Positions 59,592 through 64,000 of a DNA stretch of 64,000 nt are shown here, piece after piece. The notes beneath the pieces were generated by a model that saw nothing but the letters and a program-made list of their open reading frames with translations, was not told the DNA's origin and did not search any database. The stretch is taken from NCBI GenBank assembly GCA_023379935.1, contig JAMCPD010000009.1, positions 1-64,000 on the forward strand. Direction: 5' to 3'. The DNA comes from Actinomycetota bacterium. Lineage in GTDB: Bacteria > Actinomycetota > Acidimicrobiia > Acidimicrobiales > JAMCPD01. Within the stretch, counting starts at the first letter, position 1; each line of letters opens with the position of its first letter. The position numbers were made by a program, and so were the translations under genes.

Positions 59592-60782
59592 TTACGACCG
59601 AGTGGGCGCAAATACAACACAGCCGTTATGTCCGCCGAACCCAAAAGAGTTGGACAAAACAGGTCCGGGCTCGAACTTCCTCGGTGAGCCGTTTACAATA
59701 TCAAGTTCTATTTCTGGATCGGCCGTCTCAAATCCGGCGGTGGGGGGTATCTGTCTGTTTTGTAAGCTCAGAGATACAGCTACCGCTTCTATGGCCCCCG
59801 CTGCTCCCATAGAATGCCCGGTGATGCCTTTGATTGATGTCACAGGCGGCGGTGTATCACCAAATACCTTATGGATTGCTTGGGATTCTGCCGCATCATT
59901 TAATGGGGTAGAGGTCCCATGAGCGTTTATATGTACAATATCCGATGGTTTTAGGCCCGCATCTGAAATAGCCAACCTCATGCATTCCGTGGCACCGACA
60001 CCACCTGGAGCCGGAGCGGTTATGTGATGAGCATCCGCCGTACTTGCTGTGCCGATTATTTCACAGTATATGTGTGCTTTTCTTGCTGTTGCATGTTGAA
60101 AGTCTTCCAGCAGTAAGGCGGCGGCTCCTTCCGCTATCACAAAACCATCGCGCATGGCATCAAAAGGACGCGATATGCCGGTTACGGACAGAGCGGTCAT
60201 ATTGGCAAAAGCCGCTACCGCCACAGGGGTAATAGCCGCTTCCGTTCCTGCTCCTATTGCAATTTCGCAACGGCCTTCCGCTATTAAGTTTGCTGCGTGT
60301 GATATTGCATGAGTTCCGGAAGCGCATGCTGTTGCTACTGTTTCACACGGCCCTTGGAAACCCAAGTGCATAGAGGTTATAGCGGGTGCTGCGTTTGGCA
60401 TAATCATCGTTACCAAGAAGGGAGATACCCTGTTCGCTCCCTTTTCATGCAAGACCATTACTTGTTGCTCGTAGGTTATCATTCCTCCTATTCCAGTTCC
60501 GACTATTACTCCCGCTCTTTTGGGATCGGCCGAAGGAGACCCGCCATCTTCGAAAGCCATCATAGATGCGGCTAACCCCATCTGTGCAAATCGGTCTGTT
60601 CTGCGTACCTCCTTTGGTCCTAAGTATATACCGGGGTCAAAATCATTAACTTTACGTATTCCAAGCGGGGGTGAGCCGTTTATACCCGCCCAGAAGGCAT
60701 CCTTTCCTATCCCGGCACAGCTGACTATTCCAAGACCCGTTACCGCAACTCTGCGAAGAGCATTTTTGTGTTGTAGGTTCAT
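59592..60782 (-). CDS. fabF: Beta-ketoacyl-ACP synthase II
   Basis: 396-residue condensing enzyme of fatty-acid elongation. Cys-His-His triad: C153 (VATACASGTHA), His in NAHGTSTPLND and His in ITGHSMGAAGA. C-terminal NSFGFGGHN is conserved. Last gene of the type II fatty-acid synthase run. Its upstream gap to acpP is filled by five 18-bp repeats, and the ATG directly follows a decayed repeat unit. Confidence 0.95.
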   Translation of the reverse strand: MNLQHKNALRRVAVTGLGIVSCAGIGKDAFWAGINGSPPLGIRKVNDFDPGIYLGPKEVRRTDRFAQMGLAASMMAFEDGGSPSADPKRAGVIVGTGIGGMITYEQQVMVLHEKGANRVSPFLVTMIMPNAAPAITSMHLGFQGPCETVATACASGTHAISHAANLIAEGRCEIAIGAGTEAAITPVAVAAFANMTALSVTGISRPFDAMRDGFVIAEGAAALLLEDFQHATARKAHIYCEIIGTASTADAHHITAPAPGGVGATECMRLAISDAGLKPSDIVHINAHGTSTPLNDAAESQAIHKVFGDTPPPVTSIKGITGHSMGAAGAIEAVAVSLSLQNRQIPPTAGFETADPEIELDIVNGSPRKFEPGPVLSNSFGFGGHNGCVVFAPTRS

Positions 60783-60921: not shown

Positions 60922-61161
60922 TCAAAGCTTAGATGCTATTAAATCAAATGCGCTGCCAACGGTCTCTATTCCGTCCAACTCAGACTCTTCTACGGTGATG
61001 TCGAATACCTCTTCCAAAGCCATTACCAACTCAACCAGGTCCAAGCTGTCCGCTTCTAAGTCATCTGCAAGGTGTGCTTCTTTAGTTATCTGCTCTTCTG
61101 GTACTCCCAGCACATCAGCGGCGCATACTCTGAACTTTTCAAAAGCAACGTCTTTATCCAT
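60922..61161 (-). CDS. acpP: Acyl carrier protein
   Basis: 79-residue acidic carrier. Phosphopantetheine serine S39 is in LEADSLDLVELVM. Strong AAAGGAGAT ribosome site. Between fabG and fabF, the usual order. Confidence 0.95.
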   Translation of the reverse strand: MDKDVAFEKFRVCAADVLGVPEEQITKEAHLADDLEADSLDLVELVMALEEVFDITVEESELDGIETVGSAFDLIASKL

Positions 61162-61312: not shown

Positions 61313-62089
61313 TCAAAGTCCCATAGACATTCCTCCGTCAACGGCTAATACTACTCCCGTTATATATGAGGCGTCTTTTGAAGCGAGAAAATGCACTGCG
61401 CTTGCCACCTCTTGTGGCGTTCCGAGACGCTTCAGCGGAATTGACCCGGCCAGCTCGTCTATGCGCTTTTGCCCGACATCGGCTAACATTGTCGTATCGA
61501 TAGGTCCGGGCGCCACTACGTTTACAGTGACATTTCTTGAAGCAAACTCCCTGGCCAAAGAGCGGGCTAATCCCATTAAACCGGCCTTAGATGCAGCGTA
61601 GTTGGCTTGTCCGGCTGATCCCATAAAACCCGCAACAGAGGATATGAATATCATGCGCCCTTGATGTGTTTTGATCATATGGCGACAAATCAGCTTTGCT
61701 GTGCGCCAAGTAGCAGTTAGGTTGCAGTCCAACACCTCATTCCAGTCTTGATCGCTCATCTTCATCAACAGTGTATCTTTAGCAATACCGGCATTTGCCA
61801 CAAAAACCTCAACTCCTCCCAAAGTTTCCTCTATGGCGCGATGAGCTTTCTCTAACTCTTCAGGTACCGTAACATTGCATCGCAAGTCCATCAACGCATC
61901 TCCAAACTCCTCTTTCAGTTCGTGTAGTTTAGCAGTTGGTGAACTGCTATAAGTCAGCGCTACCTTGTCACCGCTTTCTAAGAAACGCTTTACACATTCC
62001 AGTCCTATACCCCGTGAGCCGCCTGTGACAAGTACAGTCCTTCGGTTGGACGTGTGAATCGCGGGATTGCTCATTTTCCCACATTCCAT
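61313..62089 (-). CDS. fabG: 3-oxoacyl-ACP reductase
   Basis: 258-residue SDR enzyme reducing 3-oxoacyl-ACP with NADPH. Nucleotide site TGGSRGIG near 22-29, NAGIAKDT, catalytic S-Y-K with ISSVAGFMGSAGQANYAASKAG. Start at 62089 overlaps the fabH 3' end by 19 nt; the Met at residue 6 is the alternative. 151 nt of T-rich sequence separate it from acpP. Confidence 0.93.
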   Translation of the reverse strand: MECGKMSNPAIHTSNRRTVLVTGGSRGIGLECVKRFLESGDKVALTYSSSPTAKLHELKEEFGDALMDLRCNVTVPEELEKAHRAIEETLGGVEVFVANAGIAKDTLLMKMSDQDWNEVLDCNLTATWRTAKLICRHMIKTHQGRMIFISSVAGFMGSAGQANYAASKAGLMGLARSLAREFASRNVTVNVVAPGPIDTTMLADVGQKRIDELAGSIPLKRLGTPQEVASAVHFLASKDASYITGVVLAVDGGMSMGL

Positions 62090-63054
62090 TTAATAACAGC
62101 ACTGGCCCAGGTCATTCCGGCCCCAAAGCCGGCCAATAGGATGTTGTCTCCTTTGTTTATCCTTCCCGATGATGCGGCTTTTGCCATGGCGAGCGGTATC
62201 GAAGCGGAAGAGGTGTTGCCGGTATAGTCGATGTTGGACACCGTACGTTCTTCGGGTATCCCCAAACGAGAAGACACAGCTTCTATGATACGTGAATTAG
62301 CCTGGTGTGGGATAAAAAGAGCAATATCGGCGGATGTCAGCTTTGCCCTTTTTAATGTGGTAAGTATTGATGAGACGGTAGCTCTCACCGCTTTGCGGAA
62401 CACCTCTTGGCCTTCCATTTGCATATATCCTCCATGATTGCAGTATAGAAGATCCAAAGCTGAACCATCCACACCGGCATCCCATCCGAGCAGCATTTTG
62501 TCGTTTGTGGCATCAAAAGTTTCAGGTTTTGAGTCGGTCGATGTGTCGTTGTCGCCAAATGGTATGTTTTCCAAAACAACAGCCCCTGCGCCGTCACCAA
62601 AAAGTACTGCCGTTGTACGATCTTGCATGTCAGTTACCCTACTTAGTGTATCCGCTCCTATGATAAGTATTTTTTTTATACCCCCCACAAGCATGGAATG
62701 TGCCACTACGATGGCGTATACGAAGCCGGAACAGGCACCATTCAAGTCAAAGGCTCCGCAGCTTAGGCCTAAATTGTACTGCACCGCACAAGATGTGGCC
62801 GGCATTACCCTATCCGGTGTGGTGGTAGCCAAAATTATGAGATCTATCTGTTCCGGGTCTAGGTTGCTGTTAAAGAGAGCTTCCTTGCCGGCTTGTGTTG
62901 CCAACGCTTCTGTGGTTCCGCCCCAGTGCCGTCGGTGAATTCCTGTTCGTTCCTTTATCCAGGTATCAGAGGTATCCAGAAATGTTTCGAGCTCAATATT
63001 GGTAACCATACGCTCACCCAATGCGGTTCCAAATCCTGTTATATGGATACTCAT
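62071..63054 (-). CDS. fabH: Beta-ketoacyl-ACP synthase III
   Basis: 327-residue enzyme starting fatty-acid synthesis from acyl-CoA and malonyl-ACP. C108 in NGACSGF, His in FIPHQANSRI, and the Asn in YTGNTSSASIP complete the triad. ATG 63054 lies 2 nt after the fabD stop (TAAAAATG). An acidic Asp/Ser/Thr insertion (FGDNDTSTDSKPE) is unusual. Confidence 0.93.
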   Translation of the reverse strand: MSIHITGFGTALGERMVTNIELETFLDTSDTWIKERTGIHRRHWGGTTEALATQAGKEALFNSNLDPEQIDLIILATTTPDRVMPATSCAVQYNLGLSCGAFDLNGACSGFVYAIVVAHSMLVGGIKKILIIGADTLSRVTDMQDRTTAVLFGDGAGAVVLENIPFGDNDTSTDSKPETFDATNDKMLLGWDAGVDGSALDLLYCNHGGYMQMEGQEVFRKAVRATVSSILTTLKRAKLTSADIALFIPHQANSRIIEAVSSRLGIPEERTVSNIDYTGNTSSASIPLAMAKAASSGRINKGDNILLAGFGAGMTWASAVIKWNVGK

Positions 63055-63056
63055 TT

Positions 63057-64000
63057 TTATACCGAACCTGAGATTTTTGGCCGCGACTCTGGCACTTTTT
63101 TTGTGCGTAACCACGCCACTGGTTGTCCCTGAGTTACCCGTTCACCGGGTAACACCAAAATATCTACGAGCATTCCCTCAAAGGATGAGCGTATCTCCAG
63201 CTTACCTGCCGTACTCTCTGTTGTGCCTATTAAATCCCCCACCTGTATATCTGTAGGTAAGTGGGTGGTTTTCAAACCTTCTTCAACTTCTTCTGTCGGA
63301 TAGAACACTCCCGCGGACGGACTTACAATTAAGCGCTCATAGATATATGTGTGCTCGCCGGCATGGCGGGCGGCTGCTTTTGTCCATGACTGCGCTGTTT
63401 TGGTTGCTAGAATATTGACCAGTTCATCCAGGCTGTCTGGGCCGTTGATTGATACTGTTTTTGCAGCCGGTATGGTTCGTTTACACAGTCCGCTCAATAC
63501 TTCACCCGGACCTATCTCGACAAAAATACGAGACCCGTACTCCCACATCGTGTGCAGACTTTGATGCCATCTGACAGGACTGCAAAGTTGTGAACTTAAT
63601 AAATTAGGCCAGATGGATGGGTCCTGGTGGATCCTTGCGTCTATGTTTGCCACCACCGGGACTTCAGGCACACTAAAGGATACTTCAGAAAGTGCCTTTT
63701 TCAGTCGTTGACGCGCGGGTATCATAAAAGGAGTATGGAATCCCCCTTTAACCTGCATAGGTAAGGCCTTTTTAGCCCCTGATGCTTTTGCAATCTCTAT
63801 TGCTTTATCTACGGCCCGGGGATCCCCGGCTATTACGATCTGGTTCGGAGAGTTGTAGTTGGCAACCCATACATCTCCTTCCGCTCGGCAACAGCTTGCC
63901 TCAGCATCGTCATCACCGATACCTATAAGGGCCATCATCTTTCCTTCTCTTTTGTCAACAGCATCTTTCATGGCTTGCGCTCTTTCACACACCAGCTTGG
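63057..64000 (-). CDS. fabD: Malonyl-CoA:ACP transacylase with C-terminal BCCP-like domain (5' end outside window)
   Basis: The visible 314 codons begin inside the transacylase. They include the CERAQAM segment, SPNQIVIAGDP, the catalytic-His motif KGGFHTPFM and VEIGPGEVLSGL. The GHSLG serine motif lies beyond the window. After residue 230 or so of the visible part comes a biotinyl/lipoyl-type sandwich: SPSAGVFYP, IQVGDLIG, then EIRSSFEGMLVDILVLPGE and TQGQPVAWL. Where BCCP has EAMK, this reads ESTAGK and alignment puts Ala at the biotinyl lysine. Such a fusion is unusual for FabD. Confidence 0.88.
   Translation of the reverse strand, partial: KLVCERAQAMKDAVDKREGKMMALIGIGDDDAEASCCRAEGDVWVANYNSPNQIVIAGDPRAVDKAIEIAKASGAKKALPMQVKGGFHTPFMIPARQRLKKALSEVSFSVPEVPVVANIDARIHQDPSIWPNLLSSQLCSPVRWHQSLHTMWEYGSRIFVEIGPGEVLSGLCKRTIPAAKTVSINGPDSLDELVNILATKTAQSWTKAAARHAGEHTYIYERLIVSPSAGVFYPTEEVEEGLKTTHLPTDIQVGDLIGTTESTAGKLEIRSSFEGMLVDILVLPGERVTQGQPVAWLRTKKVPESRPKISGSV

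Follow-up and report, generated by a model that had tools for sequence, protein, structure and literature searches.

A lysine-less relative of biotin carboxyl carriers tied to FabD in Actinomycetota, and its possible role as a docking module of FAS II

To our knowledge, it has not been settled if acetyl-CoA carboxylase and fatty-acid synthase are physically coupled in bacteria. The mycobacterial FAS II operon includes accD6, a carboxyltransferase (CT) gene of an acyl-CoA carboxylase, and we know of no domain resembling a biotin carboxyl carrier protein (BCCP) in it. In plants, BADC proteins, which lack the biotinylation motif, are described as the glue of the BC-BCCP complex and assemble acetyl-CoA carboxylase (PMC11926652), while in actinobacteria epsilon subunits stabilise carboxylase complexes (PMC13118682). 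In the open-licence literature that we searched, we found nothing on FabD-BCCP fusions, on BCCP-like genes in actinobacterial fab clusters, or on a named family of this kind. The lysine-less relatives of AccB that we describe here from actinobacterial FAS II operons are apparently a conserved family not previously described.

The FabD tail and its fold

The window, a stretch of 64,000 nucleotides from an Acidimicrobiales genome, ends inside a fabD gene, whose 3' end occupies 63057-64000 on the reverse strand. The frame 63057-63998 (-) is open up to the window edge; on the full contig (G000:C9) the gene runs about 316 bases further, to ~64316, and comprises 419 codons from a TTG start (424 from stop to stop). 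No stop lies between the FabD part and a tail domain of about 85 residues at the end of the protein, which bears out the original prediction of a FabD fused to a BCCP-like domain. The protein belongs to the fabD equivalog family TIGR00128 (275.1 bits over residues 1-282, cut-off 260.9). It contains both GGFHTPFM (63723-63746) and AGHSLGEY, the latter encoded outside the window; we take the serine of GHSLGEY and the histidine of GxFHTP to be the catalytic residues of FabD. The genes fabH, fabG, acpP and fabF all follow downstream on the same strand (Table 1). Just upstream of fabD, also outside the window, lies a 1256-codon ORF (L022:4428-8198(-) on G000:C9), by eye an apparent fusion of a multi-pass membrane N-terminal half and a phosphomannomutase-like C-terminal half.

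Table 1. Positions of the features of the fabD locus in the window
Feature	Position	Strand	Basis
FabD (malonyl-CoA:ACP transacylase) domain, C-terminal part	63423..64000	-	TIGR00128 match
Linker, FabD to carrier-like domain	63360..63422	-	variable sequence among relatives
Lysine-less BCCP-like barrel-sandwich hybrid (BSH) domain, GEHTYIYERL...GQPVAWLR	63105..63359	-	structure prediction, profile, Foldseek
Biotinyl-hairpin equivalent, GDLIGTTESTAGKLEIRSSFEG	63174..63239	-	ungapped alignment to BCCP hairpin
fabH	62071..63054	-	ORF similarity; ATG 2 nt past fabD stop
fabG	61313..62089	-	ORF similarity
acpP (acyl carrier protein)	60922..61161	-	ORF similarity
fabF	59592..60782	-	ORF similarity

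Structure prediction with AF2 folds the tail as a barrel-sandwich hybrid (BSH) with pLDDT values of 87-98 across the domain core, as had been expected from its sequence. In a Foldseek search of the PDB, the top matches are the biotin carboxyl carriers 5gua, 1bdo and 2d5d (TM-score on target 0.78-0.84, E ~3e-5 to 6e-5); among those that follow are lipoyl domains and the sandwich domain of enzymes resembling aspartoacylase. When PDB sequences are searched with a profile of 24 relatives, the picture is the same: Pyrococcus BCCP (2d5d, 1.2e-6), E. coli BCCP (6e-5) and the 1.3S subunit of transcarboxylase are among the best hits. By prediction, then, the tail has a barrel-sandwich hybrid fold whose nearest counterparts are biotin carboxyl carriers. 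Judged by profile scores, its nearest kin are carriers of the AccB type: a family profile built without true BCCPs scores three of them at 41-50 bits and the carriers of alpha subunits and GcvH at 14-24, a comparison somewhat biased by the fact that the AccB examples came from an earlier version of the profile. For the biotinyl/lipoyl family PF00364 (gathering cut-off 22.1 bits), the window domain stays below the threshold at 13.2/16.6 bits, which makes the initial call of a lysine-less BCCP-like domain subtle, and right; four of nine scanned relatives, all of them separate-gene forms, pass it with 22.5-29.9 bits. In a model of a homologue, both FabD and the BSH domain are predicted mostly above 90 and the linker at ~47, which fits a flexible tether between two folded parts.

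What sets the domain apart is its hairpin. When GDLIGTTESTAGKLEIRSSFEG is aligned without gaps to the BCCP hairpin, the position of the biotinylated lysine is an alanine (codon 63207-63209), and the lysine of AGKLE (63201-63203) lies two residues past the site and is not conserved. The window protein retains the hairpin tip at BCCP length. In the profile alignment of the 24 relatives, a family gap covers KMEN of AMKMEN, that is, the biotin lysine and the tip, and in most fused members the hairpin is four residues shorter and the tip is missing. An AMK-type motif is absent from all 164 relatives, and lysine reaches at most 4.3% in any alignment column. The biotinylated (A/V)MK lysine of biotinyl domains thus has no counterpart in the aligned sequences and, as this defining residue was looked for and is absent, we do not class the family as BCCPs. 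That the domain carries biotin or another swinging group, as its carrier-like appearance had suggested, is not supported: it has no conserved lysine, and most fused members lack the tip. We consider a covalent carrier role unlikely.

Distribution, gene order and repeated fusion

Relatives were drawn from genomes of the same order, from genomes of the same phylum and from named genome contigs (Acidimicrobiales, Acidimicrobiia and Candidatus Microthrix titles). The query for the named contigs was tuned to Acidimicrobiales, and we speak here of Actinomycetota and make no claim on other phyla. The resulting family has 164 rows, near-copies included, of which 123 are fused to FabD and 41 are separate genes; the predicted fusion is therefore clade-wide and accompanied by a separate-gene form. 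Three true BCCPs bearing AMK (L176, L178, L179) were left out, as was an orphan barrel-sandwich protein without AMK (L174:5873-6230(-)), which is encoded beside aminotransferase and sulfotransferase genes, away from fab genes. The hosts are mostly uncultured bacteria of the Acidimicrobiales and other Actinomycetota, and no relatives were found in viral contigs. Five records titled Bifidobacterium breve (L088, L118, L128, L144, L150) carry FabD-BSH operons of the Acidimicrobiales type; their titles look wrong.

In a full-length alignment of 50 sequences, the BSH domain is conserved about as well as FabD (0.72 and 0.74), with a 12-residue linker at 0.26 between them. Of its 77 columns, 28 are at least 95% conserved, E, R and W positions among them, and the invariant positions include GExL, ER, P-G, ERV and PIAWL. 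Within the same order and class, a number of fab clusters are without the domain, indicating that it is dispensable there. Four near-complete genomes of the order or class (G022, G019, G373, G074) gave no fabD match at all, and two more (G008, G033) have FabD-like domains only within frames of ~1400-2400 codons, so the organisation of fatty-acid synthesis varies within the order.

As a separate gene, BSH spans roughly 90-120 codons and often overlaps the end of fabD; it is present in several families of the Acidimicrobiales and, beyond the class, in many others. The usual order is fabD-[BSH]-fabH-fabG-acpP-fabF, with BSH mostly between fabD and fabH; fabH is in the locus in 39 of the 41 separate rows and fabD in 35. 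All 123 fused rows lie in fab operons, most of them with fabH downstream, and the fusion partner is always FabD. The fused rows come nearly all from Acidimicrobiales, with two other lineages separately: in a FabD tree of 101 rows, they form one large Acidimicrobiales group plus the distant f77 and f111, the latter on a long branch and of unsure placement. The fused state must have changed at least twice to account for the well-supported branches, a pattern expected of partners that interact. Since separate genes are widespread, the fusion is likely the later state, although the tree is unrooted. One genome (G028) has both forms (loci L051 and L043): besides a fused FabD-BSH in a full fab operon, it contains another locus in which a further fabD is accompanied by BSH as a gene of its own and in which we detected no fabG.

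In three families of one order (f88, f95, f102), a separate BSH is the first gene of an operon BSH-fabH-acpP-fabF-CT, which ends in the carboxyltransferase gene of an acyl-CoA carboxylase, and one locus from the window's class (L061) reads fabD-BSH-fabH-fabG-acpP-fabF-CT. In two genomes, G331 and G455, BSH immediately precedes CT, and the best matches to fabH and fabD lie ~380 kb away or on different contigs; here, the BSH gene stays with CT and not with FAS II. The CT linkage was seen in the one order and L061, and in most lineages the fab locus has no CT. The genome of the window itself holds frames of 605 and 708 amino acids with strong PF00364 matches, which by length and motif appear to be of the alpha-subunit type, and two CT genes. 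We considered the tail as the missing BCCP of this genome and rejected the idea: with other biotin carriers and CTs present, it is not their replacement.

Docking and its alternatives

What could the domain do without its lysine? We propose that it descends from an AccB-type biotin carrier and is kept, non-catalytic and non-biotinylated, as a protein-protein docking or assembly module of FAS II. It would bind the acyl-CoA carboxylase complex, most likely on the face of CT or biotin carboxylase that otherwise contacts a BCCP, and thereby tether malonyl-CoA production to FabD and FabH; the flexible linker would let FabD reach malonyl-CoA and ACP, and no swinging-arm chemistry is expected. In the simplest history, the FAS cluster would once have contained an AccB gene, which lost its lysine when the biotin step passed to carboxylases of the alpha type. 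The docking reading builds on the fold, the AccB kinship, the lost lysine, the strong conservation, the position between fabD and fabH or fusion to FabD, the repeated fusion and the CT linkage, and on the analogy with plant BADC and the epsilon subunits of actinobacteria. We hold it highly probable that BSH is a non-carrier docking or structural domain. That its partner is an acyl-CoA carboxylase is plausible but tentative, and for the whole proposal, a BCCP-derived module joining malonyl-CoA supply to FAS II initiation in the manner of plant BADC, we see the case as evenly balanced. The original prediction had offered a link between malonyl-CoA production and fatty-acid synthesis, or a structural dock; AccB-type kinship and the CT linkage in one order lend this indirect support.

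The most serious competitor keeps the domain within FAS II: BSH could be a structural or regulatory module with no relation to carboxylase that, by binding FabH, ACP or another FabD, positions FabD and FabH for the initial condensation. It is favoured by the presence of fabH in nearly all separate and most fused loci and by the invariable choice of FabD as fusion partner, and linkage to FabD and FabH alone fits this module too; its BCCP ancestry and the CT linkage speak against it, above all the BSH-CT pairs of G331 and G455 apart from fabH and fabD; we regard it as unlikely, if worth keeping in mind. A lysine-less BCCP fold could also serve as a decoy that fills carboxylase active sites, making BSH a negative regulator, the role first put forward for plant BADC, which some authors have suggested to be inhibitory (cited in PMC11926652). 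However, covalent fusion to FabD fixes the stoichiometry, which is unusual for decoys, and most fused members lack the hairpin tip that a decoy would insert, so we consider this role improbable.

Two further explanations conflict with the pattern of conservation. A true carrier modified on another residue would find a candidate in the window species, whose AGKLE lysine is only two residues past the canonical site, but nearly all relatives are without it, no column is rich in lysine and the hairpin is shortened in most fused members; we give this almost no credence. Loss of the catalytic lysine, and of the whole domain in a few relatives, might instead suggest a vestigial tail without function, which is very improbable for a domain conserved as well as FabD, down to its E, R and W positions, and kept both separate and fused across many families. 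Returning to docking, a broader and more speculative version, possible though we would not favour it, is that the lysine-less AccB family as a whole forms a BADC-like scaffold coupling carboxylase to FabD and FabH in a malonyl-CoA-channelling FAS II initiation complex, with repeated FabD fusion making the coupling covalent. With a small, conserved, biotin-incompetent BCCP-like protein at hand, such coupling can be tested directly on small soluble proteins.

Comparison with known systems

Finally, we would like to place the domain among its described counterparts. It shares the barrel-sandwich hybrid with the biotinyl domain of AccB (e.g. 1bdo), its nearest kin by profile and structure, but lacks the AMK lysine, is shortened at the tip in most fused members and is either fused to FabD or encoded together with fabD and fabH. 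With the epsilon subunits AccE/PccE (PF13822), it has in common that a small non-catalytic protein is encoded beside CT in some lineages; the two families are unrelated, however, and PF13822 is absent from the Pfam matches of the BSH domain and the scanned relatives. Epsilon and BSH coexist in f88/f95 and f111 genomes, so BSH is probably not simply an epsilon replacement; in the window genome, PF13822 was not detected, epsilon being short and divergent. The mycobacterial operon with accD6 resembles the CT-containing loci in that a CT of an acyl-CoA carboxylase is united there with genes of FAS II. Plant BADC and BSH are both BCCP homologues without the biotinylation motif and tied to fatty-acid synthesis, whereas BSH is bacterial, a putative carboxylase binder, fused to FabD or encoded beside fabD, and found in the window in a genome with a carboxylase that is apparently of the alpha-subunit type, with BC and BCCP fused. 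If the proposed coupling is true, bacteria gain a parallel to plant BADC.
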